Source of the DNA: Thioalkalivibrio paradoxus ARh 1
Lineage (GTDB): Bacteria > Pseudomonadota > Gammaproteobacteria > Ectothiorhodospirales > Ectothiorhodospiraceae
DNA length: 64,000 bases
Assembly (NCBI RefSeq): GCF_000227685.2
Contig: NZ_CP007029.1
Span: forward strand, 186,001 to 250,000
Direction: 5' to 3'
Below the pieces are notes generated by a model that made no database searches, was not told the origin of the DNA, and saw nothing but the letters and a program-made list of their open reading frames with translations. The stretch's first letter is position 1. Each line of letters starts with the position of its first letter. This document shows positions 46,628 to 63,280 of this stretch, in pieces. The position numbers and the translations under genes were made by a program.

Positions 46628-46698
46628 CCGCCGCGGCGGGGCCGTCGACTGTCGCCGATGGCGTTCGCATGGAATCGAACCGAGAAGGAGGCAGGGAG

Positions 46699-46749: not shown

Positions 46750-46853
46750 GGGCACACTTTGAGACACCCACTTTGTTGACCGTCGCCGCGGCGGGGCCGT
46801 AGGCTTGCGCCGATGGCGTTCGCATGGAATCGAACCGAGAAGGAGGCAGGGAG

Positions 46854-47053
46854 ATGCCGCAGCCGCGTTCCAGTCTGGTCAGTCTGAGCGATACCCCCTG
46901 GTACCACGTCGTCTCGCGCTGTGTGCGGCGAGCGTATCTGTGCGGAGAGGATGTCCATTCCGGGCGAAGTTTCGAGCATCGGCGGGGCTGGATCGTGGAG
47001 CGTCTGGGGCAGTTGGCCGGGGTCTTCGCGGTGGACGTCGCGGCCTATGCGGT
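46854..47053 (+). pseudogene. RAYT transposase fragment B (5' third)
   Basis: About 67 codons nearly identical to the start of the intact copy (one visible change, LEQLAG to LGQLAG), ending after AAYAV. That is just before the HxH catalytic motif. A short spacer and the TGAGAC motif at 47072 follow, so the catalytic half is absent. Confidence 0.82.
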
Positions 47054-47088
47054 GCGCCGGACCGAACACTGTGAGACACCCACTTTGT

Positions 47089-47220
47089 GCGGTCCTGAAA
47101 GTAATCCCCTTTCTATGAACGTGTGTGCCAGCCCCGGGGCGGTTTTGTCCAACAGACGTTTATCCGCTATGCTGCGCACGCTGGATATGCGCTAAGCTGT
47201 TATCGGCATCAAGGGAGCGG
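47089..47220 (+). repeat. About 120-bp repeat, copy 1, upstream of a low-GC gene
   Basis: CGGTCCTGAAAGTAATCCCC ... CAGACGTTTATCCGC ... GTTATCGG. It recurs at about 50130-50245 upstream of hicBA. It ends in a GTTAT core just before the gene, reminiscent of an integron recombination site, but a full attC fold is not evident. Confidence 0.65.
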
Positions 47221-47224
47221 CCCT

Positions 47225-48118: not shown

Positions 48119-48303
48119 AACGAATAATGGTGACGCTGTGAGACCCCCACTTTGTGCGACACGAAGTTGCACGCTTATTTATCAGGGAGTTAGATCTCGG
48201 GGAACACTGTGAGACACCCACTTTGTTGACGGTCGCCGCGGCGGGGTCGTAGGCTTTCGGTATAGGCGTTCGCATGGAATCTAACCGAGAAGGAGGCAGG
48301 GAG

Positions 48304-49440
48304 ATGCCGCAGCCGCGTTCCAGTCTGGTCAGTCTGAGCGATACCCCCTGGTACCACGTCGTCTCGCGCTGTGTGCGGCGAGCGTATCTGTGCGGAGAGG
48401 ATGTCCATTCCGGGCGAAGTTTCGAGCACCGGCGGGGCTGGATCGTGGAGCGTCTGGAGCAGTTGGCCGGGGTCTTCGCGGTGGACGTCGCGGCCTATGC
48501 GGTGATGTCGAACCATGCTCACCTGGTGGTCCGCATTGACGCCGAGCGAGTGCAGGGCTGGGATGCCGAGGAAGTCCTGCGGCGCTGGACGCAGGTGTTT
48601 TCCGGGCCGTTGGTGGTGCAGCACTACCTGGCCAATCCCGAGTCGTTGGGCGCGGCGGAAACGGCGGTGGTCCTCGACTGGGTGGAGACCTACCGCAGCC
48701 GGTTGGCGGATCTGTCCTGGTACATGCGCGTGCTGAACGAGTCCATCGCCCGGATGGCCAATGCCGAGGATGGCGTCACGGGCCGGTTCTGGGAAGGTCG
48801 CTTCAAGAGCCAGGCGCTGCTCGACGACGCGGCGGTGCTGACTGCGATGGCGTATGTCGACCTGAACCCGATCCGGGCGAAACTGGCCGAGACGCCGGAA
48901 ACCTCTGAGTACACGGCGATCGCCGAACGCCTGGCGGAGCTGCAGGGCGGGGCGGCTCGGTCCCCCACGGGTGAAAACGCCATCCGCTGCAATGCGAGCC
49001 GCGTCGTCGCTGCGGACGGGCCAACAAACCCACTTTCCGGTGCCCATGAAGAAGACACCGAACCCCCGGGCCTGCAGCAAGAGCACCGTCTGGCTGCATT
49101 AGCGTGCGCCCCGCTGATGCCCTTCGATGCGACCGGACGTTTGCCCACCGCGGTGCCGTTCGCGTTCGAGGACTACCTCGAGCTGGTGGACGGCACCGGT
49201 CGGGTCATCCGCGAGGACAAGCGCGGGTTCATTCCTGGCGCGACGCCGGCGATTCTGGAACGCCTGAACATCGACCCGGAGCAGTTCATTCGCACCGCTG
49301 GCCGCACGTTGCACCGCTTCGGCAGCGCGATTGGTGCGCCCGAGCGCCTGACCGAACGCTGTGTTTCCCGCAATGTCGCCTACCTGCGGGGGATCCGGGC
49401 GGCGCGGGCGCTGTTTGATCGGTGCGAGGTCGCCGCGTAG
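48304..49440 (+). CDS. REP-associated tyrosine transposase (RAYT, IS200/TnpA-like)
   Basis: This 378-residue protein is the only full-length copy here. It has an N-terminal Y1/HUH nuclease-like domain ([21 protein letters not shown] in SNHAHLVVRID near residue 75) and RFWEGRFKSQALLDDAAVL and VDLNPIRAKL, typical of the REP-associated branch. These proteins cut at repeat hairpins. An extended C-terminal half (200-378) is specific to the subfamily. The start at MPQPRSS has the AGGAGGCAGGGAG site before it. A REP-like unit follows 48 nt downstream. Confidence 0.88.
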   Translation: MPQPRSSLVSLSDTPWYHVVSRCVRRAYLCGEDVHSGRSFEHRRGWIVERLEQLAGVFAVDVAAYAVMSNHAHLVVRIDAERVQGWDAEEVLRRWTQVFSGPLVVQHYLANPESLGAAETAVVLDWVETYRSRLADLSWYMRVLNESIARMANAEDGVTGRFWEGRFKSQALLDDAAVLTAMAYVDLNPIRAKLAETPETSEYTAIAERLAELQGGAARSPTGENAIRCNASRVVAADGPTNPLSGAHEEDTEPPGLQQEHRLAALACAPLMPFDATGRLPTAVPFAFEDYLELVDGTGRVIREDKRGFIPGATPAILERLNIDPEQFIRTAGRTLHRFGSAIGAPERLTERCVSRNVAYLRGIRAARALFDRCEVAA

Positions 49441-49488
49441 GCGCGCAGCCCTCGACGGCGGGATGGGGGCGGAAGCCTGCCGCTGCTT

Positions 49489-49522
49489 GGCGGATGACGG
49501 CCTTCGGCCTTTTCCGCCCTAC
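49489..49522. repeat. REP-like half unit 3, behind the RAYT gene
   Basis: GGCGGATGACGGCCTTCGGC ... TTTTCCGCCCTAC. A single arm of the dispersed inverted repeat, 48 nt past the RAYT stop, the classic position for repeats mobilised by a RAYT. Confidence 0.85.
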
Positions 49523-49653
49523 AAGTTCTTGGCGCGGGGGTCAGTGGTGTAGGATCGTTCCGTAGGTCTTCGCATTAGATTGGCGGGGTCCCCGTAATGC
49601 CGACGAAACGTGGTTGTGCGTTGGGGCGTGAGGCGCTTGCGTAGGAGAGCAAC

Positions 49654-49878
49654 ATGAATCTGAAGGAAATCGAGCAAGAGGCCCTTCACCTGTCTGCGGA
49701 AGAACGAGCGGAGTTGGCGCAGAAACTGCTGCTGAGTCTTGACGTGCCAGGGGCGGAGGAAATTGAAGCAGACTGGTTGGTGGAGGCACATCGCCGCGCC
49801 ATAGAGATTGATGAGGGCACTGTGGAGCCGATTCCAGCCGATGAAGTGCGAAAGAGGGCGCAAGCCCTGCTGAGATGA
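49654..49878 (+). CDS. Putative addiction-module antitoxin (TIGR02574-like)
   Basis: A 74-residue helical protein (MNLKEIEQEALHLSAEERAE, LAQKLLLSLD, HRRAIEIDEGTVEPIPADEV). This is the small 'addiction module component' family that partners RelE/ParE-type toxins. AGGAG precedes the ATG. Its stop overlaps the start of a truncated toxin gene, so the module is half broken. Confidence 0.85.
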   Translation: MNLKEIEQEALHLSAEERAELAQKLLLSLDVPGAEEIEADWLVEAHRRAIEIDEGTVEPIPADEVRKRAQALLR

Positions 49879-49972
49879 CGTATTTCTTTCATCCGGCGGC
49901 AGAGGCGGAGCATCTGGAAACCGTTGCTTACTATGAATCCAAACGGGCTGGCTTGGGCGCGTCTGGACACAT
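49875..49972 (+). pseudogene. Truncated RelE/ParE-type toxin
   Basis: From ATG 49875 the first ~33 residues (MTYFFHPAAEAEHLETVAYY, ESKRAGLGAS) match the N-terminus of ParE-like toxins that follow TIGR02574 antitoxins. The gene is cut at about 49972 where a TGAGAC-type motif begins, and the rest of the toxin is missing. The frame runs on as unrelated sequence to 50141. Confidence 0.78.
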
Positions 49973-50129
49973 TAAGACCCCCACCTTATTGACCCTCGCG
50001 ACTGGATTTGCCGGCAAGATGCGGCTAACGTTGAAGCAAATAACCACGACAGGGAGCGCTAGCATGGCCCGAGACCGCCGCCACGACTGCTACAGCGCCC
50101 GAGCCCGGGGTGCATCCCCCGGCCTTCCT

Positions 50130-50245
50130 GGCCCGTCCTGAAAGCAATCCCATTTCTATGAACGTGGGTGCCAGCCTCGGGACGGTTTCGTCCAGCAGAC
50201 GTTTATCCGCCATGCTGTGCACGGCGGATAAACGCTAATATGTTA
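50130..50245 (+). repeat. About 120-bp repeat, copy 2, upstream of hicBA
   Basis: CGTCCTGAAAGCAATCCCAT ... CAGACGTTTATCCGCC ... GGCGGATAAACGCTAAT, ending in GTTATGTG. It is the homologue of 47089-47220. CGTTTATCCGCC and GGCGGATAAACG (about 50200-50235) can form a 12-bp stem. A GCATAACAAGGCGG sequence follows hicA at 50684, partly complementary to the GTTATG end. Confidence 0.65.
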
Positions 50246-50269
50246 TGTGCTCAATAGAGAGGAAGTGTA

Positions 50270-50473
50270 ATGAAGCTAAAAGTTGTAGTGCACGAGGCAG
50301 AAGAAGGCGGTTACTGGGCAGAAGTCCCTTCTATTCCTGGTTGTGCAACTCAGGGAGAGACCTTCGACGAACTGCTGAGCAATATTTACGAAGCAGTGGA
50401 GGGGTGTTTGTCCATAGATATTCAGGATATCCCGATTTCAGAAAAAGACAAGGTAATGGAGATTGCCGTTTGA
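50270..50473 (+). CDS. hicB: HicB-family antitoxin
   Basis: A 67-residue HicB with the partial RNase H-like fold (KLKVVVHEAEEGGYWAEVPS, IPGCATQGETFDELLSNIYE). The GAGAGGAAG site precedes the ATG. It appears shorter than many HicB proteins because no C-terminal DNA-binding domain is present. Its stop overlaps the hicA TTG start. The operon order is HicB then HicA, and the unit is AT-richer than its surroundings, suggesting horizontal gain. Confidence 0.88.
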   Translation: MKLKVVVHEAEEGGYWAEVPSIPGCATQGETFDELLSNIYEAVEGCLSIDIQDIPISEKDKVMEIAV

Positions 50474-50676
50474 AACCTGTCAGCGGCAAGAGTTTCTGTA
50501 AAGTCCTCGAAACGAAAGGCTGGAAATTGAGGCGCATCAATGGAAGTCATCATATCTACGGAAAAGCGGGTGAGAGCGCGCGCGTTTCAGTCCCAGTGCA
50601 TGGCAATGCACTGTTGAAAATCGGTCTGCAAAGGCACTTGATGAAGGTTGCTGAAATTGAAGAAAACGAATTATAA
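50470..50676 (+). CDS. hicA: HicA-family mRNA interferase toxin
   Basis: A 68-residue toxin with the double-stranded-RNA-binding-like fold of HicA: KSFCKVLETKGWKLRRINGS, then HHIYGK with the catalytic His, then HGNALLKIGLQRHLMKVAEI. The start is taken as TTG 50470, which overlaps the hicB stop and gives the family length. HicA cleaves mRNA and HicB blocks it. No frame defects are seen. Confidence 0.88.
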   Translation: MKPVSGKSFCKVLETKGWKLRRINGSHHIYGKAGESARVSVPVHGNALLKIGLQRHLMKVAEIEENEL

Positions 50677-50780
50677 TTCAGCGCATAACAAGGCGGCACA
50701 CTATGAGAGCCCCACTTTGTTGACGATCACCGCGGAGGGGTCATACAACAACAAAGAAGTAGACACCCAGTTTGTTGACC

Positions 50781-50865
50781 CCCGAGTTCCTGACCGAGCG
50801 TTGTGTTTCCCGCAATGTGGCCTACCTGCGGCGAATCCGGGCGGCGCGAGTGCTGTTCGATAGGC
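50781..50865 (+). pseudogene. RAYT transposase fragment C (3' end)
   Basis: The last ~28 codons of the RAYT gene (LTERCVSRNVAYLRGIRAAR in the intact copy) recur with several substitutions and a new stop. They begin right after a CACCCAGTTTGTTGACC motif at 50764-50780. A fourth trace of the element. Confidence 0.78.
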
Positions 50866-50900
50866 GGGGACTACCATAAGCCCCCACTTCGTTGGTCACG

Positions 50901-51284
50901 TCATTGCTCTTCGGCCCGGGCAAACGCCCGCAGCCATGGGTCGAGGTGGGCGATGTCGAATGTCCCCGACTCGAACATTTGCATCATCTCCGAGTAGATC
51001 TGCAGCGGGCCACGCTGCAAGCGCCAGCCGTTGATGCGAAAGAACACGTCTGCAGCGGCAAAGGCGATGCGCTTGTTGCCATCCACGAAGGGATGGTTGA
51101 TGGCCAGGCTCTCGATCAGCGCAGCCGCTTCAGCCACGATGTCTTCGTAGTAGCCAGTGTGTGGTCGAAACAGGGCAGCCTCCAGGGCGCCGGGGTCACG
51201 CACGCCGAGCGCGCCACCGTAGCGCCGAATCAACACCGTGTGCATGCCGAGCATGTCGGCCACTGTCGGGTAGTCGCGCGGCAC
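50901..51284 (-). CDS. Doc-type toxin (death on curing; Fic fold)
   Basis: This 127-residue Doc protein has the motif NHPFVDGNKRIAFAAADVFF near residues 63-82, matching the Doc HxFx(D/N)xNKR signature. Doc proteins phosphorylate EF-Tu. The segment TVLIRRYGGALGVRDPGALE is also typical. It follows its antitoxin with a 3-nt gap on the minus strand. Unlike the two long Fic proteins here it has no built-in inhibitory helix, so it depends on its partner. Confidence 0.9.
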   Translation of the reverse strand: MPRDYPTVADMLGMHTVLIRRYGGALGVRDPGALEAALFRPHTGYYEDIVAEAAALIESLAINHPFVDGNKRIAFAAADVFFRINGWRLQRGPLQIYSEMMQMFESGTFDIAHLDPWLRAFARAEEQ

Positions 51285-51287
51285 GGC

Positions 51288-51518
51288 CTACTTCGCCAAT
51301 TCACGGTAGAGGCTGTCGAACTCCTCGAGGCTGGAGGCAAACGAGGCCATCACGTGGCGGCGCGGGCGTTCCTTCTGCTGCCGGTCGATGTACTCGCGCA
51401 GGGCTTCATCGAGCACGGCCTGGAACTGGCGCCCCTGGCTTTCTGCGATCTGGCGCAGCGCAGCCAGCACCTCGGGTGCCGCTTGGGACGAGAACTTTTC
51501 TCGGACGGGAGTGGCCAT
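51288..51518 (-). CDS. Antitoxin partner of the Doc protein
   Basis: A 76-residue protein (MATPVREKFSSQAAPEVLAA, LRQIAESQGRQFQAVLDEAL, then REYIDRQQKERPRRH) with a ribbon-helix-helix-like N-terminus and a C-terminal helix (SLEEFDSLYRELAK) suited to bind the toxin. The start at 51518 has GGAG 6 nt before it; ATGs at 51530 and 51533 are alternatives. Position directly upstream of doc makes it the likely antidote and repressor. It is not obviously Phd. Confidence 0.78.
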   Translation of the reverse strand: MATPVREKFSSQAAPEVLAALRQIAESQGRQFQAVLDEALREYIDRQQKERPRRHVMASFASSLEEFDSLYRELAK

Positions 51519-51646
51519 GGCGATCTCCATCATGATGGGTCTTGACGTTTCATGATAAAGCAAGATACCGCCGTGCGACACCAAAGGGTGCGTGTTCGAA
51601 ACGGGTCAGGGTTTGTGCAGGTGGCGACGACGTCCGGTCGCGGGTC

Positions 51647-51720
51647 GGCGGATGACGGCCTTCGGCCTTTTCCGCCCTACGCGGGCCCTGGTAGGGCGGA
51701 AGAGCGCAGCGTCATCCGCC
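51647..51720. repeat. REP-like unit 4
   Basis: GGCGGATGACGGCCTTCGGC ... CCGCCCTAC, followed by GTAGGGCGGAAGAGCGCAGC ... GTCATCCGCC. Both arms are present in reversed order. It separates the Doc and VapBC modules. Confidence 0.88.
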
Positions 51721-51832
51721 ATTGCGGCGTTCGAACGGCCATTCGGCCGGGGGGCCGCCGACCGGCGCGCAGGTTGACGGCAATTGCTGTCGCGACTTAG
51801 TGTGTAGCTGTCTGCACGCGTGTAGGGAAAAC

Positions 51833-52087
51833 ATGGCGCTGAATATCCGAAATCCAGAAGCGGATCGGCTGGCAGCAGAGCTGGCCCAGGCCACGGGTGA
51901 AACCAAGACCGAGGCGGTGATTCAAGCGATGCGGGATCGCCTGAACCGTGTGCGCCGTGAGCGCGGGGGAACGCGGCTCGCGGATGAGCTGGACGAGATC
52001 GCGCGTGCCTGCGCGGCATTGCCGGTTCGCGATCGCCGCAGTGCGGAGGAGATCCTCGGTTACGACGAGCACGGTCTCCCGCGCTGA
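51833..52087 (+). CDS. VapB-family antitoxin
   Basis: An 84-residue Psk/VapB-type antitoxin: [37 protein letters not shown] (ribbon-helix-helix-like N-terminus), and a C-terminal tail ([15 protein letters not shown]) that contacts the PIN toxin. Its stop overlaps the vapC ATG. It should repress its own operon. Confidence 0.9.
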
Positions 52088-52491
52088 TGGTCATCGATAC
52101 CTCGGCGCTGGTTGCCATTCTCCAGGACGAGCCGGAACGGCACGCTTTCAACGAAGCCATCGAGGCTGCGGAGTCGCGCTTGCTTTCGGTGGCCAACTGG
52201 GTCGAGACGTCCATCGTGATCGAGGTGCGCTACGGCACGGCGGGGCTGCATCTGTTCGACCGATTCCTGGATCGCGCAGCGATCGAGTGCGTGCCCGTGG
52301 ATCTTCGGCAGGCCAAGGAGGCGCGTCGTGCCTTCAGCCAGTACGGCAAGGGGCGACACCCCGCCGGCCTGAATTACGGTGACTGTTTCGCCTATGCGCT
52401 GGCGCGCACGAATGGCCAGCCGCTGCTGTTCAAGGGTGACGATTTCGCCCGCACGGACATCGCCCCAAGCATTGGCTCAGCCGCCCGGTAG
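52087..52491 (+). CDS. VapC-family PIN-domain ribonuclease toxin
   Basis: A 134-residue PIN protein: [17 protein letters not shown] carries the first catalytic Asp, VETSIVIEVRYG the second acidic site, and LNYGDCFAYALARTNGQPLL and FKGDDFARTDI the remaining acidic residues. VapC toxins cut tRNA or rRNA. All acidic residues are present, so the toxin should be active. It is translationally coupled to VapB. Confidence 0.93.
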   Translation: MVIDTSALVAILQDEPERHAFNEAIEAAESRLLSVANWVETSIVIEVRYGTAGLHLFDRFLDRAAIECVPVDLRQAKEARRAFSQYGKGRHPAGLNYGDCFAYALARTNGQPLLFKGDDFARTDIAPSIGSAAR

Positions 52492-52517
52492 CTACAGCGT
52501 AAGGCGGACGAGAGTTT

Positions 52518-52631
52518 GTAGGGCGGAAGAGCGAAGCGTTATCCGCCATTGCGGCGTTCGAACGGCCACCCGGCCGGGGACGCGCCCACCGCCGGTCGGC
52601 GGATGACGGCCTTCGGCCTTTTCCGCCCTAC
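52518..52631. repeat. REP-like unit 5
   Basis: GTAGGGCGGAAGAGCGAAGC ... ATCCGCC and GGCGGATGACGGCCTTCGGC ... CCGCCCTAC. It lies between vapC and the second fic gene. Confidence 0.9.
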
Positions 52632-52723
52632 GGAAGGAAGCTTTCGTTAGCGCCGATCTAGAGAAAGGATTTGCTCCTATCCGTTCGTTAGGGCATGCTC
52701 GGGAAAAGGAATTTTATCCGGCC

Positions 52724-53896
52724 ATGATCTCAGCACCAGAACGGTCCCGCCTCGGGCAACGGGTGACGATCTCGACCGCGGGTGAGCGGGTGGAGGCCTT
52801 TGTGCCGCCTGCATTGCCGCCGGATCCAGCCATTCGGATGGATCGCCTCTATCGACCGCTTGAAAACGCCAACCGCGCGCTCGGACGTCTCGACGGGGTC
52901 ACGTCCATCCTGCCGGACACGCCGCTGTTCCTCTACATGTATGTCCGCAAGGAAGCGATTCTGTCGTCCCAGATCGAGGGGACGCAATCGTCTCTTTCGG
53001 ATCTCCTGTTCTTCGAGAGCGAAGAGGCCCCCGGCGTTCCTCTGGACGATGTTCAGGAGGTCTCGAACTATGTCGCGGCAATGGACCATGGTCTTGCACG
53101 GATTCGAGACGGGTTTCCGGTATCGCTGCGGCTGATCCGGGAAATCCACGAGACGCTGCTTGCCCGGGGGCGCGGCAGCACGAAGCAGCCGGGCGAATTT
53201 CGCCGCTCGCAGAACTGGATCGGCGGTACGCGGCCGGGAAACGCGCTGTTCGTCCCGCCTCCACCCGACCGTGTGCTGGACCTGATGTCTGACCTCGAAG
53301 CCTTCATTCATGCCGACACGCCGGAGATTCCGGCTCTGGTCAAGGCTGGTCTGGTTCATGTGCAGTTCGAAACCATACACCCGTTTCTGGACGGGAACGG
53401 GCGCGTCGGCAGGCTCCTGATCACCTTGCTTCTTTGCGCGCAGGGTATCCTGCAGGAACCCGTTCTGTACCTCAGTCTCTACTTCAAGGCGCATCGCAGG
53501 CAGTACTACGATCTGCTCCAGCAGGTTCGGGAACGCGGCGCGTGGGAGGCCTGGATCGAGTTCTTCCTGGACGGCATCGCGGAGACCTCGCTGCAGGCGG
53601 CCGAGGCAGCGCGCGAGATTCTGGGTCTGTTCGAGGCCGACCGCGAGCGGATCGAGGGCCTCGGTCGTCCGGCCGCATCCGCGCTCCGTGTGCACCAACT
53701 CCTTCAGCAGAAGCCGCTCGTCGGAATCCCCGACGCCGCACAGAGGCTCGGCCTCTCCGCGCCGACCATCGCGAAGTCCATACAGCATCTTGCAGACCTC
53801 GGGATCGTCCGGGAAATCACGGGCAAGCAGCGCGGGCGGTTGTTCGTGTACGGCGGTTATCTGGATATCCTGAACCGCGGAACAGAGCCACTTTGA
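52724..53896 (+). CDS. Fic-domain protein with self-inhibitory motif
   Basis: A 390-residue Fic protein with inhibitory motif SSQIEGTQSSL near residues 82-92 (S/TxxxEG type), Fic motif HPFLDGNGRVGRL near 219-231 and a C-terminal winged helix (IPDAAQRLGLSAPTIAKSIQ, HLADLGIVREI). It is the common DUF4172-like AMPylator type. It stands alone upstream of the large helicase gene, separated from it by a pair of REP-like units. Confidence 0.92.
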   Translation: MISAPERSRLGQRVTISTAGERVEAFVPPALPPDPAIRMDRLYRPLENANRALGRLDGVTSILPDTPLFLYMYVRKEAILSSQIEGTQSSLSDLLFFESEEAPGVPLDDVQEVSNYVAAMDHGLARIRDGFPVSLRLIREIHETLLARGRGSTKQPGEFRRSQNWIGGTRPGNALFVPPPPDRVLDLMSDLEAFIHADTPEIPALVKAGLVHVQFETIHPFLDGNGRVGRLLITLLLCAQGILQEPVLYLSLYFKAHRRQYYDLLQQVRERGAWEAWIEFFLDGIAETSLQAAEAAREILGLFEADRERIEGLGRPAASALRVHQLLQQKPLVGIPDAAQRLGLSAPTIAKSIQHLADLGIVREITGKQRGRLFVYGGYLDILNRGTEPL

Positions 53897-53929
53897 ATGG
53901 CCATCGTGAGCCAAGAGGTAGGGCAAGAG

Positions 53930-54098
53930 GTAGGGCGGAAGAGGCCGAAGGCCGTCATCCGCCGTTTCGGAGTTTCGGGTTGGCCGGAGGTTTACGGCTT
54001 CGCCCGGCGGTGCATGGCGGATGACGCTGCGCTTTTCCGCCCTACGCGGTCTAGGCGGTCTTCGGTAGGGCGGAAGAGGCCGAAGGCCGTCATCCGCC
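53930..54098. repeat. REP-like units 6, a triple array
   Basis: GTAGGGCGGAAGAGGCCGAA ... GTCATCCGCC, then GGCGGATGACGCTGCGC ... CCGCCCTAC, then another GTAGGGCGGAAGAGGCCGAA ... GTCATCCGCC. It ends 29 nt before the large helicase start, so it covers its expected promoter region. Confidence 0.9.
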
Positions 54099-54126
54099 AT
54101 TTCCACGCGCGGCGGGATGTGGCGGC

Positions 54127-57100
54127 ATGATTCCCTCGATCGTCGCGAGCGAGTTGCAGGAGGCGATCCGGCGCTTTCTGTACGCAAGCTTCCCGATGAC
54201 GACGCCGGGGTTCCGCCGCGACGACGGCGGCACCATACTCGACGATCTCCTCGCCGAGCCGGAGGCGATCTTCAAGGGCCCGTACCTCGGGTTGGGATTG
54301 CCGTTCCGGCGCATGGAGCCCGGCGCGACGCTGCCGTTCGAGCGGATCGAGCTTTCGTTCACCCCGTACCGCCACCAGGTCAGGGCCTTCCAGCGCCTCT
54401 GCGGCCCGAACCCCCGTTCCACGCTGGTCGCAACCGGAACCGGGTCGGGCAAGACCGAGTGCTTCTCGCTGCCCATCCTCGACTATTGCGCCGGCCGCCC
54501 GGAGCCGGGCGTGAAGGCGGTCATCGTGTACCCGATGAACGCATTGGCGGCCGACCAGGCCCGGCGCTTTGCCCGCGACATCCACCGGGATCGGGAGAGC
54601 TTGCGCGGCCGGGTCAGCGTCGGTCTCTACGTGGGTGACAGCGGACCCTCGGTGCACAAGGTGATGAGCCGCGACAGCGTGATCACCTGCCGCGAGACCT
54701 TGCGCGAATACCCGCCGGACATCCTGCTCACCAACTACAAGATGCTGGATTTCCTGCTGCTGCGCCCGCGGGACCAGCGTCTGTGGCGCCATAACGAACC
54801 GGGCCGCTTGCGCTATCTCGTCGTCGACGAGCTGCACACCTTCGACGGTGCCCAGGGTACCGATCTCGCCTGTCTGGTCCGCCGCCTGCGCGATCGACTG
54901 CTGCCGGGCGAAGGGCTTGCCTGTGTCGGGACGTCGGCGACCCTGGGTGGCGAGTCGGCGGGCCAGGAACTGATCGACTACGCCTCCCAGGTGTTCGCGA
55001 GCCCGTTCGATGCCGATGCGGTGGTGATGGAGGATCGGGAAACCCCGGAGGAGTTCCTGGCAGGCGCCGAGCTGCGCTTCACGAACTGGCCCACCACCGG
55101 CACGTACGGTGGCGGCTATGGGGAGGTGCAGGAGGCGGCGGTCGACAACCTGCGCAAGCTGGCGATGCGCTGGTTTGGGGGTGACGCCCCGGCGCTGGAT
55201 GCACGAGACCCGGCGGTGGCGATGCAGGCCCGCTTTCAGCTCGCCGAGCGGCTGCGCGAGTGCCGCGCGTTCCGCGAGTTGCTGGAGCACGCACCGGGGT
55301 TGCTGGATGTGAATGCCGTGGTGGCCGACTGGGCGCAGCGGTTCCGGATCGAGCCGGAACAGGCGCGGCAGATGCTCGACAGCCTGCTGGCACTGGTTTC
55401 GTGGGCTCGCCGTCCGAACGATCCCCACGCGACGAGCACCGACGATCCGGGCCAGCCCTTCGTGACCCTGCGCCTGCAGCTCTGGCTGCGCGAGCTGAGC
55501 CGGTTGGTCGCGAACGTCGGATTCCGCCCGATGCTCCGTTTCGCCGATGACCTGACGGACATCGCATCGCCCCTGCACCTGCCGGTGGTGCATTGCCGCG
55601 AATGCCATGCGACGGGCTGGCTATCGGTGCGCAAGGCGGACGAAGGGCGGCTCGAGACCGACCTGCAAGCGATCTACCGGACCTATTTCGGCAATCACCC
55701 GGAGATGTGCCTGCTGTTCCCGCTGGAGGGGACACCGCCGGCCGAGCCGAAGGGCATCGAGGGTGCAATCTGCCCGCAGTGCGGGCAACTGCTTCCCAGG
55801 GCCGGCGCGACGCAGTGCCCGCACTGCAAGGGCGATGCCCCGCTCGTGCCGGTCTGGGAGCCGAACATGCGCCGCACGCAGGCGCGGGGCGACCTGAACG
55901 TGCAGCGCAGCCACCACGACTGCCCGTTCTGCGGCGCGCACGAGGGGCTGAGCTTGATCGGCTCACGCGCGGCGTCGTTGGCGAGCGTACTGATCGGGCG
56001 TTTGTTCGCCACCCCGTACAACGACCACCGCAAGCTGATCGCATTCTCCGACGCGGTACAGGACGCCGCGCACCGCGCAGGATTCTTCGGTGCGAGAACC
56101 TACAGCACCCTGATCCGAGGGGCGATCGCGCGTTTCGTGACGGCACAGGGGGAGGGCCTGCCGCTTTCGGTGGTCGCGAGCGAGATGCCGCGGTACTGGC
56201 GCAACCGCACCGGTAGTGAGGCGCGCTTCGTCGGCACCTTCATCGCACCGAACATGGAGTGGCTTCGGGACTACGAATATCTGAAGACCCAGGGTCAGCT
56301 CCCGCCGCACAGCGCCGTTCCCGGGTGGGTGGAACAGCGCCTGACCTGGGAGGTGTTGCAGGCGTTCGGCCTGCGTGCCCGGATCGGGCGCACGCTGGAA
56401 CGTTCCCGTGTCGCGGCCGTCGGGCCGGATCCGGGGGCGCTCCGGGAGTCCGCAGCGCGCCTGGCCCAGCGGCTTTCGGAGGAGATCGGCTCCTTGCGCG
56501 GGATCGGTGAGACGGCCGTGCTGCGCTACCTGCTGGGGTTTCTCTGGCGCATGCGGGTGGGCGGTGCCTTTTATCACCCGATGCTGGATGGCTACATCCA
56601 GGATCGCGGCAAGCCCTACGCGCTCTACCGCACGCCGCACATGCCGAACTACGGCGGCGCCGCCGCTCCGCCGGCGCTCGTCACGTTGAACCGGGTGGGG
56701 CGGTCGTTCACCGCACTCGCGGCCGATGGGCGCTCGGGCTATGCGGACTGGTTCGACAAGACGCTCGCGGTGGGCGATGCGGTGCTGGCCTCTGCCGAAT
56801 ACCGCCAGGTGATCCAGCGGGTGCTCGGACAGCTCACGCAGGATGGTTTCCTGATCGAACGGGAGGTGGGTGGTGACTCGGTCTGGGGTCTGGACCCGGA
56901 GCGCTGGATCTGCACGACGGCGGTGGCGGCGCTGACCTGCGAACGCTGCGGTCATCAGATCCAGGTGCCACGACAGGAGCTCAGCGACTGGACCGAGACG
57001 CCCTGCCTGCGCAGCCCTTGCGCGGGCATCTACCAGCCGTCCGCAGTCGCATTACCAGCCTCCGACGGCACGAACGGGGCGCTGCACCGGTTGGTCGCCG

Positions 57101-60100
57101 CGGAGCACACAGCACTGCTCGACAGCGAGACGCGTCACATGGTGGAGCATTCCTTCATCGATGGTGACGCGCCCTGGGATGTGAACCTGCTCTCCGCCAC
57201 CCCGACGCTCGAAATGGGGATCGATATCGGCGATCTTTCTGCGGTGCTGCTGTGTTCCGTGCCTCCGGGGCAGGCGAACTACCTCCAGCGGATCGGCCGC
57301 GCCGGAAGGCGGGACGGCAATGCGCTGACCGTGACCCTGGCGAACGCACACAAGCACGATCTCTATTTCTACGCCGATCCGCTCGCGATGCTGGCGGGCG
57401 AGGTGCGTCCGCCGGGCGTGTTCCTCCAGGCGACCGCGGTCCTCGAGCGGCAGCTCATCGCCTACTGTTTCGATCGCTGGGCCGCATCCGGGATCGACGA
57501 TTCCGCGATTCCCGGTAACTTGCAGGAAACCCTGAACGGGGTCGAAGCGGAGGCCGGCGGTCGCTTCCCGTTGTCACTGCTTGAGTTCGTCGAACACCAC
57601 CGTGCCAAGATCCTGCGCAGCTTTCTCGGTTTCTTCCCGGATCTTCCGGACGAGTCGCGCGAGCACTTGGGCACCTTCCTGTTTGGCGGCGGGGGAACCT
57701 CCGGGATGGCCGTCCGGCTGGTGAACCGGTTGCACCAACTGGTGCAGGAGCGCAAGAGTCTTACGGCCCGGATCGATCGTCTGAAGAAGCAGAAGGAACG
57801 CCTGGAGTCACAGCCTCTGGACGATCGGGTCCGGGAGGAACTCGAGGCGGTGCTGGCCGAACGCGGCGCGCTGATGGCGCTGCGTCGGCGAATGAATGGC
57901 AAGCCCACGCTGAACTTCTTCACCGACGAGGGCCTGTTGCCGAACTACGCGTTCCCGGAAGAGGGGGTCACGATCCACTCGGTGATCCTGCGGCGCGTGA
58001 CTCAGGCGGAGCGGGATGAAGGTGAGTCGGGACGCCGCTACGAGCGGATCAACTTTGAAATGCAGCGCCCGGCGGTGGCCGCACTGAGCGAACTGGCACC
58101 GATGAACCGCTTCTACGCGGTCGGCCGGCGGGTGGAGATCGACCAGGTGGATCTCTCGGTGAGCAGCGCCCAGGAGTGGCGGCTCTGTGACCGCTGCCAC
58201 TACATGGAGAACGTGACCGAGAGCGGAGATGCGCACACGGTCTGTCCGCGCTGCGGGAGTCCGCAGTGGGCGGATGCGGGGCGCAAACGCACGCTGCTGA
58301 AATTGCGCCAGGTGTTCGCGACCGCGGATGATCGTGGCAGCCGCATCGGCGATGACAGTGATCAGCGCACGCCGGCGTTTTTTCAGCGCCAGATGCTGGT
58401 GGACGTGCCCCTGTCCAGTGTAGGCAAGGCCTACCGGCTGGCATCGGAGGAACTGCCGTTCGGTTTCGAATATTTGCCGCGGGTGAAGCTACGCGAGGTG
58501 AACTTCGGCCAGCCGGGCGTGGAATCCCACGAGTTTGCGGTGGCCGGCGAGTTGGCCTCGCGGCCCGGGTTCCAGTTGTGCCGGCACTGCGGCAAGGTGC
58601 GGCGCAAAGGCGGGCGCGAGCGCGCATCCTTCCAGCATGCCTACGACTGCAAGCTGCGCAAGCCGGGTGCCGAGGAGAGCGAAGCCGACTATTTCGACAG
58701 CTTGTACCTGTTTCGGGAGCTGGAGTCCGAGACGGTGCGGATCCTGTTGCCGCTGGCCGAGGTGGGGTCGTCGGGAACACGGCTGCACTCCCTGATCGCG
58801 GCGCTGAACCTGGGACTTCGCCGCTACTTCCGCGGCGATGTCGGTCATATCCAGGTGGCGCACCAGTCCGAGCCCGCCGGCGGCGAGAGCCGCAAGCACT
58901 TTCTGGTGCTGTTCGACAGCGTGCCCGGCGGTACGGGCTACCTGAAGGAGCTGCTGCGCCAGCCGGATAACCTGATGAACTTGCTGCGGGCGGCCTTTGA
59001 GGTGGTCAGTCGCTGCGAGTGCCGCGAAGACGAAACCCGCGACGGCTGCTACCGCTGCCTGCTCGCCTACCGCGAGAGCCGCCGGATGGACGAAATCTCG
59101 CGCAAGGCGGCGGAGGAGATCCTGGGCAAGATCCTGGCCGCCGCCGACACCCTCCAGCCGATCGACGGGTTGGCGTCGGTGGACATCAATGCGCTGCTGG
59201 AAAGCGAGCTCGAGCAGCGTTTCGTGGACGCGTTGGCCAACGCGCCCGGGGTGACGCTCTCGCCCCAACTCGTGCACGGCAAGTCGGGGTTCTTCCTGTC
59301 AGTGGCCCCCCAAGGGGTAGGGCAGCGCCCCGCGGCCTGGAAACTGGAACCGCAGGTGCAGCTCGGGCCGGGGCAGGGCGTTGCGGTGAAGACGAAGCCC
59401 GATTTCGTGCTGTGGCCGGTGCGCGAGGCGCCGGGGCTGCTGCCGGTGGCCGTCTTCATGGACGGGTTCCAGTATCACTGGAACAAGGCGGACGACGACA
59501 CCCTGAAGCGTCAGGCCTTGCTCGACAGCGGCCGCTTCCGGGTGTGGAGTCTGAGCTGGCACACGCTGCCGATGCCGGGCATGAAGCAGGTCAACCCGGC
59601 GGCGCAGCTGTTGAAGACGGGGCAGCAGGCGACGATGCAGACGCTGTTCACCCGACTCGCGCCCAGCGGTGGCTGGGATCCCTATCTGGCCTATGGCGGC
59701 TTCATCGACAAGGGACCATTTGGCTGGTTGTTGGCTTATTTGGCGGGCGGCACGGAGAACCTGGACAGGCTGCGGTTTGCCGCGTTGTCCCGGGCTTTGG
59801 GGTGGCTGGATTCGCGCAGCGTGCAGGACCCCGCGTTTCGGAATGCCTTGCTTGAGGACGTGCAGTCGCGGTTCCCGGAGGCGGTGCACGCCGGTTGGAG
59901 TGGCACGCGGCAGGATCCGAGAATCCTGGGTGGATTGCTGCCTGCAACCGGCGGTGACGACACACCGATGGCGGGGATCGATGTCGGCGTCTGCCTTCCA
60001 CGCAGTGCGATGCAGGCGGCCGCCGGGGGCGATTTGCAGGGGTTGCAAGCGGATATCCGAGTGCACCTCGGGATAGACGATGAGCAAGCCCGGCAGGACA

Positions 60101-60549
60101 AGGATTTCGAGACCCGGTGGGGCGCGTTCTGGGGTTCGGCCAACCTGCTTCAGTTCCTGCCGCGGCTGACACTCGCTTCTGCTCGGGGCATCCAGCAGGG
60201 GCTGTACGGCGTGGTGTTTCGGATGGCAGAACCGTCCGGGGAGGAGCCCGCGGCCGACGACGGCGACGCGTTGCAATGGCAGGAGATCGCCCAGAATTCG
60301 TTGTTTGGAGAGCATGTGTTTGGGCTGCGCGATGCCGGGGTGCCGCCACCGGAAGTCGGGATCGAGCTGGTCGACGAGGCGGGCGCGGTGCTGCCCGAGA
60401 TCGAACTCCTGTGGCGGGACCAGCGGATTGCGGTGGTGGCGGAGGTGGACGAATCGGGGCGCGTGGGCCTGGAGCGGCTGGGCTGGACCGTGCTGGACGG
60501 TCTGGACGATCGGGCGATTGCCGAATTGACGGGTAGGCTGGCGCCGTGA
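54127..60549 (+). CDS. Giant DEAD/DEAH-box helicase with DUF1998 (DruE-like)
   Basis: A 2140-residue superfamily-2 helicase. Walker A ATGTGSGKTE lies near 100-110 and VVDELHTFDGAQGTDL near 233. The second motor (LLSATPTLEMGIDIGDLSAV, then LQRIGRAGRRDGN) lies near 1023-1065, separated by long insertions. Zn-finger-like Cys clusters occur at CRECHATGW, CPQCG/CPHC, CPFCG, CDRC/CPRC and CRHCG. A DUF1998 block (GGTGYLKELL, CECREDETRDGCYRCL, about 1600-1650) and a nuclease-like C-terminal region follow. Size and layout resemble Druantia DruE, but I see no other Dru gene. Confidence 0.85.
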   Translation: MIPSIVASELQEAIRRFLYASFPMTTPGFRRDDGGTILDDLLAEPEAIFKGPYLGLGLPFRRMEPGATLPFERIELSFTPYRHQVRAFQRLCGPNPRSTLVATGTGSGKTECFSLPILDYCAGRPEPGVKAVIVYPMNALAADQARRFARDIHRDRESLRGRVSVGLYVGDSGPSVHKVMSRDSVITCRETLREYPPDILLTNYKMLDFLLLRPRDQRLWRHNEPGRLRYLVVDELHTFDGAQGTDLACLVRRLRDRLLPGEGLACVGTSATLGGESAGQELIDYASQVFASPFDADAVVMEDRETPEEFLAGAELRFTNWPTTGTYGGGYGEVQEAAVDNLRKLAMRWFGGDAPALDARDPAVAMQARFQLAERLRECRAFRELLEHAPGLLDVNAVVADWAQRFRIEPEQARQMLDSLLALVSWARRPNDPHATSTDDPGQPFVTLRLQLWLRELSRLVANVGFRPMLRFADDLTDIASPLHLPVVHCRECHATGWLSVRKADEGRLETDLQAIYRTYFGNHPEMCLLFPLEGTPPAEPKGIEGAICPQCGQLLPRAGATQCPHCKGDAPLVPVWEPNMRRTQARGDLNVQRSHHDCPFCGAHEGLSLIGSRAASLASVLIGRLFATPYNDHRKLIAFSDAVQDAAHRAGFFGARTYSTLIRGAIARFVTAQGEGLPLSVVASEMPRYWRNRTGSEARFVGTFIAPNMEWLRDYEYLKTQGQLPPHSAVPGWVEQRLTWEVLQAFGLRARIGRTLERSRVAAVGPDPGALRESAARLAQRLSEEIGSLRGIGETAVLRYLLGFLWRMRVGGAFYHPMLDGYIQDRGKPYALYRTPHMPNYGGAAAPPALVTLNRVGRSFTALAADGRSGYADWFDKTLAVGDAVLASAEYRQVIQRVLGQLTQDGFLIEREVGGDSVWGLDPERWICTTAVAALTCERCGHQIQVPRQELSDWTETPCLRSPCAGIYQPSAVALPASDGTNGALHRLVAAEHTALLDSETRHMVEHSFIDGDAPWDVNLLSATPTLEMGIDIGDLSAVLLCSVPPGQANYLQRIGRAGRRDGNALTVTLANAHKHDLYFYADPLAMLAGEVRPPGVFLQATAVLERQLIAYCFDRWAASGIDDSAIPGNLQETLNGVEAEAGGRFPLSLLEFVEHHRAKILRSFLGFFPDLPDESREHLGTFLFGGGGTSGMAVRLVNRLHQLVQERKSLTARIDRLKKQKERLESQPLDDRVREELEAVLAERGALMALRRRMNGKPTLNFFTDEGLLPNYAFPEEGVTIHSVILRRVTQAERDEGESGRRYERINFEMQRPAVAALSELAPMNRFYAVGRRVEIDQVDLSVSSAQEWRLCDRCHYMENVTESGDAHTVCPRCGSPQWADAGRKRTLLKLRQVFATADDRGSRIGDDSDQRTPAFFQRQMLVDVPLSSVGKAYRLASEELPFGFEYLPRVKLREVNFGQPGVESHEFAVAGELASRPGFQLCRHCGKVRRKGGRERASFQHAYDCKLRKPGAEESEADYFDSLYLFRELESETVRILLPLAEVGSSGTRLHSLIAALNLGLRRYFRGDVGHIQVAHQSEPAGGESRKHFLVLFDSVPGGTGYLKELLRQPDNLMNLLRAAFEVVSRCECREDETRDGCYRCLLAYRESRRMDEISRKAAEEILGKILAAADTLQPIDGLASVDINALLESELEQRFVDALANAPGVTLSPQLVHGKSGFFLSVAPQGVGQRPAAWKLEPQVQLGPGQGVAVKTKPDFVLWPVREAPGLLPVAVFMDGFQYHWNKADDDTLKRQALLDSGRFRVWSLSWHTLPMPGMKQVNPAAQLLKTGQQATMQTLFTRLAPSGGWDPYLAYGGFIDKGPFGWLLAYLAGGTENLDRLRFAALSRALGWLDSRSVQDPAFRNALLEDVQSRFPEAVHAGWSGTRQDPRILGGLLPATGGDDTPMAGIDVGVCLPRSAMQAAAGGDLQGLQADIRVHLGIDDEQARQDKDFETRWGAFWGSANLLQFLPRLTLASARGIQQGLYGVVFRMAEPSGEEPAADDGDALQWQEIAQNSLFGEHVFGLRDAGVPPPEVGIELVDEAGAVLPEIELLWRDQRIAVVAEVDESGRVGLERLGWTVLDGLDDRAIAELTGRLAP

Positions 60550-60567
60550 ACCTGACAAACTCCGCAT

Positions 60568-60709
60568 GGCGGATGACGCTTCGCTCTTCCGCCCTACACC
60601 ACCCCCCTCGCCACCGAAGGCCGGAACAGGGCGCAGCCCGTCATCCGCCGGCCCCCGGCGCGGCCACGCCCCCCTGTAGGGCGGAAGAGGGCGCAGCCCG
60701 TCATCCGCC
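60568..60709. repeat. REP-like units 7
   Basis: GGCGGATGACGCTTCGCTCT ... CCGCCCTAC, then GGCGCAGCCCGTCATCCGCC, then GTAGGGCGGAAGAGGGCGCA ... GTCATCCGCC. It fills most of the gap between the DUF1998 helicase and the UvrD helicase. Confidence 0.88.
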
Positions 60710-60769
60710 ATTCGACACCGCTGACCGGCACGCCTGCGATTCGGCCACGATGATCGACCGGAGACCGAT

Positions 60770-62947
60770 GTGAGCGAAATGAGACCCACCGTTGCCATCT
60801 CGACGGATTTCCTGCAGGCCTACGCGACGATCCCGAAGGCCCAGCAGAAAAAGGTGATGAACTTCGTTACGAAGTTCCGCAACGACCCGTTCAGTTCGGG
60901 CATCCACTACGAGAGGATCAACGACGCGCGGGACGCGAACTTCCGGTCGGTTCGCATCGACCAGGACTACCGCGGGATTGTACTGAGCCCTGAGAAGGGC
61001 GATGTGTACGTGCTGCTGTGGGTGGACAAGCACGATGATGCCTACGCCTGGGCGCGCCGTCACACCTGCGGGGTTCACCCGGAAACCGGAAGCCTCCAGT
61101 TGTTCGAAGCGGACTCTGAGATCCTGACCCCGGAGAGGGCCCCGGCGGTCGAAGTCGCGCAGCGGCCCCTGTTCAGCCTGCGGGAGCGCGAACTCCTGCG
61201 CATCGGGGTGCCGCACGATCGGCTGGCACGGGTGAAGGAAGTGAAGACCGAGGAGGAACTCGAACGCCTCGAGACGCTGCTTCCGAAGGAAGCCTTCGAG
61301 GCGCTGTATCTGATCGCGGCGGGCAGCGATCCGCAGGAGATCATCCAGGAATACGCGGCCAAGGCGGAGGCGGTGGACACGGAAGACTTCGCGGCCGCAC
61401 TGACGCGCGAGCAGAGCCGGCGTAGCTTCCACGTGGTCGAGAACGACCAGGAACTCGAAGCGATGCTCGTGGCGCCGCTGGAGAAGTGGCGGGTCTTCTT
61501 GCACCCGTCCCAGCGTCGGCTCGTGCATTGGCGTGTCAACGGTCCGATCCGGGTGCTCGGCGGCGCGGGCACAGGCAAGACGGTGGTCGCGATGCACCGC
61601 GCGCGCTGGCTCGTGCGCCACGCGCTGAGCGCTCCAGACCGCAAGGTGCTGTTCACCACGTTCACCGCGAACCTGGCCACCGATATCGCCGAGAACCTGC
61701 GCAAGATCTGCTCGCTGGAAGAGCTGGAGCGGATCGAGGTTGTCCACATCGATGCGTGGGTGAGCCGCTTCCTGAAGCGACAGAACTACCCGCATCAGAT
61801 CGTTTACGACGGCAACGCGCAGTACGAGGCCTGCTGGCGTGCCGCGCTGGATGCACGCCCTGCTGATCCGCCGCTCCCTGAAAGCTTCTATCGCGAGGAG
61901 TGGGATCGGGTGATCTTGCCGCAGCGGATCACGGATCGCGCCCAGTATTTCCGTGCGAGACGCGTCGGACGCGGGGTGCCGCTGACCCGTGCACAGCGCG
62001 CCGCGCTCTGGAGCGTGTTCGAGGAGCTCCGGATCCAACTGCATCAGCGTGGCCTGAAATGCAGCGAGGATGCCACCCAGGATGCGGCCGACCTGCTGGC
62101 GAGCGGCAAGGCCTACCAGCCCTATGACGCCGTGGTCGTCGACGAGGCCCAGGACATGGGGCCGCAGGTGATGCACCTGATTCGGCTCCTGGTACCGGCG
62201 GGGGCGAACGACATCTTCATCGTCGGTGACGGTCATCAGCGGATCTACCGGCGACGCTACACGCTCGGCGCTTGCGGAATCGAGGTGCGCGGACGCAGTC
62301 GAAAGCTGAAAATCAATTACCGCACCACCGAGGAAACTCGGCGGTTTGCGGTCGCTGTGCTGGAGGGAGAGCCTATCGATGACCTCGACGGAGGCGAGGA
62401 TTCCACCAGCGATTACCGGTCGTTAGTGCATGGGGTGCCGCCGATCATCCGAGGCTTTGCCAGCCAGGAGGAGGAGTTGGACTGGCTCGCCGAGCAGGTG
62501 AGGGATTTGCAACAGGAAGGCGCGGAGCTGAAGGACATCTGCGTGGTCGCCCGAACCAACGCACTGGTGGAGAGCTACGAGAGTGGGCTCAGGACACGCG
62601 GCTTCAGCTGCATTCGACTGAGCCGCAAGCTGGCCGACAACCGTGCGCAGGAGGGCGTGCGACTCGCAACCATGCACCGGATCAAGGGGCTGGAGTTCCG
62701 CCACGTGATGCTGGCGGCCGTGAATGAGGGTGTTATCCCGCTCCGGCAGGCCATCGAAAGCTCCGAGGATCCGACCGAACGCAGGGCCGGTGAACTCACC
62801 GAGCGTGCGCTGTTCCACGTCGCGGTCACGCGTGCCATGAGTCGTGTGTTCATCAGCTATTTCGGACAGGGCAGCGCGTTTCTGGCACGGGCCGCGATCA
62901 AGGCCTTTGTCGTGAAAGAACCCGCGTCGCGCCCCGGGGTCCCGTAG
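60770..62947 (+). CDS. UvrD-type helicase with N-terminal RelE/ParE-like domain
   Basis: This 725-residue protein starts with a ~100-residue RelE/ParE-like segment: FLQAYATIPKAQQKKVMNFV, IHYERINDARDANFRSVRID, then YRGIVLSPEKGDVYVLLWVD. From about residue 240 it is a superfamily-1 helicase: Walker A VLGGAGTGKT near 258-268, VVVDEAQDMGP near 453, INYRTTEETR, TMHRIKGLEF and LFHVAVTRAM. The fused N-terminal part may be a toxin-type RNA-binding fold or a regulatory relic. It follows the DUF1998 helicase in the same orientation. Confidence 0.85.
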   Translation: MSEMRPTVAISTDFLQAYATIPKAQQKKVMNFVTKFRNDPFSSGIHYERINDARDANFRSVRIDQDYRGIVLSPEKGDVYVLLWVDKHDDAYAWARRHTCGVHPETGSLQLFEADSEILTPERAPAVEVAQRPLFSLRERELLRIGVPHDRLARVKEVKTEEELERLETLLPKEAFEALYLIAAGSDPQEIIQEYAAKAEAVDTEDFAAALTREQSRRSFHVVENDQELEAMLVAPLEKWRVFLHPSQRRLVHWRVNGPIRVLGGAGTGKTVVAMHRARWLVRHALSAPDRKVLFTTFTANLATDIAENLRKICSLEELERIEVVHIDAWVSRFLKRQNYPHQIVYDGNAQYEACWRAALDARPADPPLPESFYREEWDRVILPQRITDRAQYFRARRVGRGVPLTRAQRAALWSVFEELRIQLHQRGLKCSEDATQDAADLLASGKAYQPYDAVVVDEAQDMGPQVMHLIRLLVPAGANDIFIVGDGHQRIYRRRYTLGACGIEVRGRSRKLKINYRTTEETRRFAVAVLEGEPIDDLDGGEDSTSDYRSLVHGVPPIIRGFASQEEELDWLAEQVRDLQQEGAELKDICVVARTNALVESYESGLRTRGFSCIRLSRKLADNRAQEGVRLATMHRIKGLEFRHVMLAAVNEGVIPLRQAIESSEDPTERRAGELTERALFHVAVTRAMSRVFISYFGQGSAFLARAAIKAFVVKEPASRPGVP

Positions 62948-63204: not shown

Positions 63205-63280
63205 TGGTGCCGACGCGCAGAATCGAACTGCGGACCTATCGATTACGAATCGATTGCTCTACCAGCTGAGCTACGTCGGC
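63205..63280 (-). tRNA. tRNA-Thr (anticodon CGT)
   Basis: A 76-nt cloverleaf on the minus strand with CCA encoded at 63205-63207. Acceptor GCCGACG/CGTCGGC, D-arm with GTAGCTCAGCTGGTAGAGC, anticodon loop TTCGTAA giving CGT, T-arm containing AGTTCGATTCT. It lies at the edge of the accessory island, a common site for integration, but I found no duplicated tRNA end. Confidence 0.97.

Follow-up and report, generated by a model that had tools for sequence, protein, structure and literature searches.

A helicase pair of Thioalkalivibrio paradoxus as the probable second half of an ARMADA type II operon, with a recurrent accessory-gene site between armB and armC

Introduction

Two large helicase genes lie next to each other in a 64,000-nucleotide stretch of the Thioalkalivibrio paradoxus ARh 1 genome (contig NZ_CP007029.1, positions 186,001 to 250,000; the whole stretch is called the window, and positions are counted from its first letter). 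Are they a defence system of two genes, or part of something larger? Sequence comparison indicates, with a probability of about 0.95, that they are armC and armD of the ARMADA type II anti-phage operon armA-armB-armC-armD, split at the armB/armC junction by 9 kb of cargo. ARMADA type II is a four-gene anti-phage system related to Druantia (Bell et al. 2025 preprint, PMC12458937). It protected Escherichia coli in a non-abortive manner, the cell surviving, and every one of the four genes was required; the system of E. coli ATCC 8739 was among those assayed (PMC12458937). The locus is best seen as a further example of this described system, and the new part of the findings is a recurrent cargo slot between armB and armC.

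Identity of the helicase pair

The window has all four ARMADA type II genes in the published order. They are as follows.

37288-40158, plus strand: armA, 956 amino acids (aa), SNF2/RapA/BrxHII-like helicase with SNF2-rel_dom and Helicase_C domains (Pfam) and matches to DrmD/BrxH models (PADLOC)
40155-45155, plus strand: armB, 1666 aa, PglX/type IIG-like adenine methyltransferase with an Eco57I domain; REase_MTase_IIG E 9.7e-258 (PADLOC)
54127-60549, plus strand: armC, 2140 aa, ATG start, YprA/DUF1998 helicase with DEAD, Helicase_C and MZB (DUF1998-type) domains
60770-62947, plus strand: armD, 725 aa, GTG start, UvrD/GajB-like superfamily 1 (SF1) helicase with UvrD N- and C-terminal helicase domains

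The start of armB overlaps the end of armA by 4 nucleotides (nt), and the order is interrupted by 8,971 nt between armB and armC. The first-pass annotation described a 2140-residue DUF1998 helicase followed by a UvrD helicase on the same strand, with repeats of the repetitive extragenic palindromic (REP) type in between. Both open reading frames (ORFs) are intact, their domains are confirmed, and REP elements do occupy the 220-nt gap. The annotation overlooked armA and armB, which lie outside the region it covered, because of the 8,971 nt that come between armB and armC.

Protein similarity, catalytic residues, and phylogeny agree with this assignment. The E. coli plasmid pYLPD7b (locus L140) has a contiguous armABCD operon, and its proteins are 52.3% (ArmA), 54.5% (ArmB), 42.8% (ArmC), and 52.0% (ArmD) identical to those of the window. 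In alignments to the pYLPD7b homologues, all eight of the residues reported as mutated in PMC12458937 are conserved: K133 and D233 (Walker) in ArmA, G609 and N986 (NPPW) in ArmB, K109 and D234 in ArmC, and K270 and D458 in ArmD. In a quick tree of ArmC, the window protein pairs with that of genome G247 (SH-aLRT, the Shimodaira-Hasegawa-like approximate likelihood ratio test, 100), then joins L037 and L120 (100), and then the Enterobacter and E. coli plasmid proteins (99), forming a set of six. The tree kept 29 YprA sequences from 42 loci, and its depth is limited because it has a single distant YprA outgroup and no ARMADA type I or reference DruE sequence. Within that depth, the window ArmC appears to fall in the type II clade.

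The ends of the two helicases may carry further domains. The C-terminus of ArmC (about aa 1690-1830) has a Vsr/PD-(D/E)xK-like motif, PDF...FMDG...H, in which D1759, D1779, and H1784 are invariant in all 14 aligned homologues. The predicted structure of ArmD matches the UvrD fold (E 1.2e-23). Its first 100 residues are predicted to form a strand, two helices, four strands (one of them short), and a helix, and the N-terminus (about aa 1-110) gives sub-threshold matches to RelE/ParE-type families (ParE_like, Gp49, YhaV, ParE-like_toxin) in nine of ten homologues. This N-terminus had no matches among PDB sequences, and ArmD had no match to the 88-aa slot ORF at 49875. The Vsr-like motif and the RelE-like N-terminus agree with the domain assignment in PMC12458937 without proving it.

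Related systems were compared with the locus. The best PADLOC models for ArmC are those of DruE (E 2.7e-96), and Druantia also has a YprA-family helicase with a large C-terminal region. The first-pass annotation, which saw no DruABCD, DruMFG, or DruH, proposed a distinct defence system or an unrecognised Druantia relative. None of these partners is among the listed PADLOC matches (the best 25 per protein) of the five proteins scanned, the other ORFs of the window having been scanned with Pfam alone or not at all. No ARMADA model is among the listed matches either, and the version used, PADLOC 2.0.0 (2023), predates ARMADA. The window helicase is accompanied by ArmA, ArmB, and ArmD in the ARMADA order, and it has a Vsr-like motif in place of the phospholipase D (PLD) domains described for Druantia type III (PMC12458937). 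That the locus is a Druantia system is therefore highly improbable. The part of the proposal that stands is a Druantia-related helicase in a non-Druantia defence context; the system is neither two-gene nor unrecognised, being ARMADA type II by the evidence above.

Class 1 DISARM (DrmD, DrmMI, DrmAB) resembles the locus in combining a SNF2 helicase, a PglX-like methyltransferase, and a YprA helicase. It differs in that the DUF1998 part is fused within one protein in the window, where MZB/DUF1998 and helicase domains share a single ORF and there is no separate DrmA or DrmB. The window also has the additional putative RelE-UvrD protein, and no PLD nuclease was found among the ORFs scanned. Gabija differs from the locus in that no GajA (OLD-TOPRIM) lies beside the window UvrD helicase. 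With respect to ARMADA type II itself, the four genes, their order, domain make-up (with the Vsr-like and RelE-like parts as candidates), tested catalytic residues, and ArmC clade are alike, while the 8,971 nt between armB and armC and the REP elements between armC and armD set the window apart.

Co-conservation and distribution of armC and armD

The pairing of armC and armD is far beyond chance. In a search of 369 genomes of the same class, 17 have an ArmC match at E <=1e-30, and in seven of these the homologue is close and full-length or nearly so (G000, G247, G060, G334, G196, G145, and G102; 39-70% identical, the window itself excepted). A close UvrD homologue lies immediately downstream in all seven. 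Among genome-contig loci, armC is followed within 4.5 kb by an armD match in 69 of the 70 that have enough contig (10 of 80 are too short); L138, with armD at 16516, is one of the 69. Co-occurrence was the check proposed in the first-pass annotation, and genes that were not co-conserved or were mostly found alone would have spoken against the pair; neither pattern was seen.

The two enzymes could instead belong to DNA repair, as helicases of the MrfAB/YprA and UvrD type, and the MZB domain is indeed named after the repair helicase MrfA. Close full-length homologues occur in 7 of 369 genomes (17 genomes at E 1e-30). This patchy distribution, the 2140-aa length of ArmC with its C-terminal nuclease-like motif, and the linkage to a methyltransferase and defence cargo make a repair role extremely doubtful.

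A further alternative is that armC-armD is a stand-alone two-helicase system and that armAB belongs to an unrelated restriction or Hma-like system. Hma consists of a helicase, a methylase, and an ATPase. The 9 kb between the two halves speaks for this, as do the matches of ArmA to HmaA and DrmD models and the ATPase gene that follows armB in the manner of Hma. However, the A-B-C-D order with homologues of the window armA and armB recurs, contiguous in L061, L088, and L140 and with other cargo elsewhere. G247 is the nearest relative: its armA and armB reach 75% and 70% identity in their best segments, and there too armB stands ahead of armC, with cargo that differs. A stand-alone pair is thus very unlikely, and assignment to ARMADA type II is preferred. 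Since the pair belongs to a known, active system, it is not to be cloned as a pair.

Several observations weigh against the assignment or complicate it. One locus of the 70, L083, has armC without armD. In G119 (L042, 4461-11516), the gene immediately ahead of a close ArmD homologue (45%) encodes a 1621-aa Sacsin/NO VEIN-like protein in place of ArmC, which suggests that another system shares the ArmD module. The predicted fold of the ArmC C-terminus (mean pLDDT, the predicted local distance difference test, 76.5) has weak PDB matches, the best being TnsA at E 0.13. The RelE-like domain of ArmD falls below every Pfam cut-off, and unrelated families score equally in some homologues. The promoter of armA can hardly serve armCD because 9 kb of cargo, partly on the opposite strand, intervenes, and a scan of 53850-54200 confined to sigma-70-like promoters found none; expression of the split operon is therefore uncertain. 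In addition, a 2026 review places ARMADA among systems that restrict DNA by unknown mechanisms (PMC12904381).

Some loci show other arrangements of the helicase genes. Six more distant UvrD homologues (34-37%) have no armA-C match in the 12-kb stretch covered for each. The Cylindrospermopsis plasmid L147 has the order C-D-A-B, so the ARMADA type II order is not absolute. L136 (38-7695) and L138 (4149-8432) each have an additional MZB/DUF1998 helicase upstream of their armC; in L136 its best segment is 42% identical, and a GmrSD gene lies between it and armC. Insertions between armC and armD are few, an example being an AbiEii-type gene on the opposite strand in L082 (16384-17352).

Proposed mechanism

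A working model can be transferred from ARMADA type II of E. coli and from Druantia type III, with some steps inferred. ArmB would methylate adenines in host DNA and so mark it as self, at a site set by the variable region of ArmB. ArmA would translocate on DNA, and ArmA and ArmC would process phage DNA that is unmarked or replicating. ArmC may load on infection-associated DNA with exposed single-stranded DNA, unwind it, and cut it with the Vsr-like nuclease. DruE, a relative of ArmC, is a helicase-nuclease that uses 3'-tailed DNA for loading and cleaves long DNA (PMC13192584). ArmD, with its SF1 helicase and RelE-like domain, would assist as a required component in a manner that the model does not specify, and the infected cell would survive.

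The armB/armC junction across ARMADA type II loci

Exchangeable accessory genes recur at the armB/armC junction, and many of these are defence genes. Among non-redundant clusters, gaps greater than 300 nt are found at 29 of 56 B-C junctions, compared to 2 of 42 A-B and 4 of 76 C-D junctions (Fisher p 4e-12, B-C versus the other two combined). Filled slots are seen in Gamma-, Beta-, and Alphaproteobacteria, Acidobacteriota, Cyanobacteriota, Verrucomicrobiota, Bacillota, and sulfate-reducing lineages.

The gaps were measured in the window, six genomes of the class (one of them represented twice, as L036 and L054), 80 genome-contig loci, and 11 plasmid regions, giving 99 entries that formed 88 clusters at 90% ArmC identity; L054, a duplicate of L036, was then removed from the junction counts. 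The genome-contig loci are the best 80 of 561 confirmed stretches, so the sampling follows similarity to the window. With flanks of 10 kb, A-B gaps above about 5 kb and B-C gaps above about 9 kb are invisible. For 31 of the 99 entries there is no B-C value, mostly because of short contigs. They include L082, L117, L136, and L138, with 10 kb upstream and no measurable armB, L120 and L139, with 5.5-6.3 kb, and L119 and L125, in which the armB match stops short. L038 (G334), where an armB remnant and armC are 5.6 kb apart, was left out of the count. A cluster was scored as filled if any member is filled, and the 29 include two mixed clusters (L061/L081/L141/L143 and L135/L145/L146/L150).

In E. 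coli, the species used to test ARMADA type II, the slot is essentially empty. An armB/armC junction query from pYLPD7b matches 518 of 5,426 E. coli genomes, ATCC 8739 included, and 478 hold at least 80% of the query in one place. Among the 60 listed, 59 have no large interruption, while H79 spans 2.9 kb beside an IS3 (insertion sequence) transposase.

Cargo turnover

Cargo differs between most of the related loci compared. The window and G247, whose ArmC is 70% identical, have no cargo in common. Five of seven locus pairs compared share none, the window and L036 among them; L092 and L130 share parts, and L095 and L113 have short weak matches alone. From armC on, the Haematobacter plasmid pOT1-7, which is filled, and the empty Martelella plasmid pMM259 share 99.7% identity over 9,700 nt. 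The insert lies between the armB stop and the armC start, and it is an 849-nt gene that appears ImmA/IrrE-like from a HELGH motif judged by eye only. Sliding identity between the two plasmids stays at 99-100% from roughly where armB ends up to 24 kb, in a backbone that is otherwise 84-95% identical, which places a recombination edge at or near the slot.

Nostoc plasmid2 (filled) and Aulosira plasmid1 (empty) form a second such pair, with 97.6% identity on the side of armC and 88.9% on that of armB. A recombination tract carried by the cargo was considered as the source of the armB 3' divergence and is the less likely explanation. The variable target-recognition region of ArmB is the likelier cause, because the divergence is confined to about aa 950-1500 and the following 100 columns are 99% identical; this variable part would fit a changing target-recognition region. 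In the closely related plasmid systems L143 and L141, ArmB is 42-65% identical over aa 1000-1500 and 93-99% across most of the remaining protein, which points to a probable swap of the target-recognition region.

Recombination between defence loci, as opposed to a single transposon, is the probable route by which cargo arrives: the 25 commonest of the 86 Pfam families in slot ORFs include no transposase family, although the window slot itself contains putative REP transposases (listed below). Duplicates of the armB 3' or armC 5' end are present in 4 of 30 other gaps (L036, L137, L068, and L095), and these junction duplicates fit recombination between ARMADA loci. No such duplicate was found at the window slot.

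Cargo content

The slots hold many predicted defence genes. Slot ORFs were called by a longest-ORF rule, without a gene finder, giving 117, or 103 after removal of the window, L112, and L128. Annotation covered 83 of the 103, the other 20 being short, antisense, or doubtful, and the tallies show the 25 commonest of 86 Pfam and 444 PADLOC families. Twenty ORFs were also read individually, plus four more and six of the window. The Pfam tally of the 83 ORFs includes AAA_15/OLD-type ATPases (5), GTPase/dynamin families (4 and 3), AbiE (2), GmrSD (2), and patatin (2). The PADLOC tally includes AriA, PDC-M07, HEC-01, GajA, and LeoA models, several of which are cross-matches of the same ATPases. These tallies count defence genes inside the slots, without a control for the defence richness of the general surroundings of the loci.

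Individual slots differ widely. At a PADLOC cut-off of E 1e-8, the cargo includes MkoA of Mokosh in L068 (E 0), ZorA2 of Zorya II in L073, PDC-M07A in L072, a ThsA-like SIR2 protein in L087, and a PDC-M28-like protein in L036. Weaker matches are PbeA in L062 and REase_II in L092. The same cut-off gave no match for L085 and for two of the three L073 proteins, one of them of 826 aa. By Pfam, L103 has an OLD-TOPRIM ATPase with a UvrD helicase (Gabija-like) and Schlafen-AlbA, L104 has GmrSD, L097 an M78 peptidase, L143 bpMoxR, and L109 DUF2326; the second L109 protein, L113, and L130 (1372 aa) have no Pfam match. The slot of G334 (L038) has two dynamin-like GTPases and HipA. In 28 of 30 loci the cargo has a lower GC content than its flanks do (Wilcoxon p 1.3e-7).

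Interpretation of the slot

The junction probably acts as a dedicated exchange slot, in which rapidly swapped defence genes are carried inside the ARMADA type II operon in several phyla and possibly share its expression or act together with it. About 85% of slot ORF length is co-directional with the operon (longest-ORF rule, redundant loci and the window included). Alternatively, the junction may simply be a place within a defence island where insertions are tolerated, with cargo functionally unlinked to ARMADA, and the chances of this are judged somewhat better than even. The cargo is varied and unrelated in five of seven pairs, the window slot contains toxin-antitoxin genes and REP elements, and ARMADA type II occurs without cargo in E. 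coli and protects there (PMC12458937). The co-directionality argues against mere tolerance. So does the fact that cargo-free loci join B and C as tightly as the other pairs, many B-C gaps being -4 to +21 nt; looser coupling therefore does not single out this junction.

The presence of defence genes within other defence systems is already known (Payne et al. 2024 preprint, 10.1101/2024.01.29.577857, as cited in PMC13092281, PMC12255303, and PMC12629846). Examples given in the citing papers are Septu in Hma, and DarTG2 and PrrC in type I restriction-modification systems. The ARMADA type II slot is thus a new host for a known phenomenon. It resembles these cases in that the defence genes of one system lie between those of another, and it differs in the host, the single specific junction, and the wide variety of cargo. 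PMC12458937 describes a strict ARMADA gene order, and accessory genes at armB/armC are not mentioned in its section 4 or legends or found by term search of the main article. No report of a cargo slot at this junction was found in literature searches on ARMADA, YprA/DUF1998-UvrD defence, and embedded defence genes.

Reading armB-armC junctions is a direct way to list candidate defence genes, because the slot is defined by two easily recognised genes. The natural pairs of filled and empty plasmids offer a setting for examining how far an embedded defence gene relies on the system that hosts it.

Cargo and surroundings of the window operon

The slot of the window has an NTPase, toxin-antitoxin-like genes, Fic proteins, and putative transposases.

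45156-54126: cargo slot, 8,971 nt between armB and armC, GC content 0.59 (0.66 in armB, 0.67 in armC)
45284-46546, plus strand: nSTAND1/AAA NTPase, 420 aa, nSTAND1 E 3e-12, weak PDC-S59 match
46824-47195, plus strand: truncated second copy (5' part) of the putative REP transposase at 48274, N-terminal protein sequence identical
47123-48118, plus strand: protein of up to 331 aa without a Pfam match
48274-49440, plus strand: putative REP-associated (HUH/Y1-like) transposase, 388 aa, HAHLVV motif, no Pfam match
50245-50676, plus strand: HicA-type toxin, HicA_toxin E 8.5e-14 on 50452-50673
50901-51284, minus strand: Fic/Doc-family protein, 127 aa, Fic E 2.7e-13
51833-52087, plus strand: PSK_trans_fac antitoxin, E 5e-30
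52087-52491, plus strand: PIN toxin, E 2.6e-20
52724-53896, plus strand: Fic_N-Fic-wHTH (winged helix-turn-helix) protein, 390 aa
53931-54098: REP elements directly upstream of armC
60568-60709: REP elements inside the 220-nt armC-armD gap
63205-63280, minus strand: tRNA-Thr (cgt), 3' end facing armD, possible island boundary

The truncated and full copies of the putative REP transposase flank the ORF without a Pfam match (46824-49440). The HAHLVV motif is presumably the mark of a REP-associated transposase, and the truncated copy presumably takes the same name. The REP family is an ordinary, genome-wide one, with 179 and 181 perfect pattern matches in the 3,756,729-base genome and none (0 and 0) for the reversed-pattern control.

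The neighbours of armD are armC, the tRNA-Thr gene, and a Fur-family gene. No convincing direct repeat marking an island boundary at the tRNA was found within the window, where the longest match is 21 nt, to another tRNA at 320-396. Upstream of armA, at 33827-35077, lies another Fic-family gene, the third in the window.

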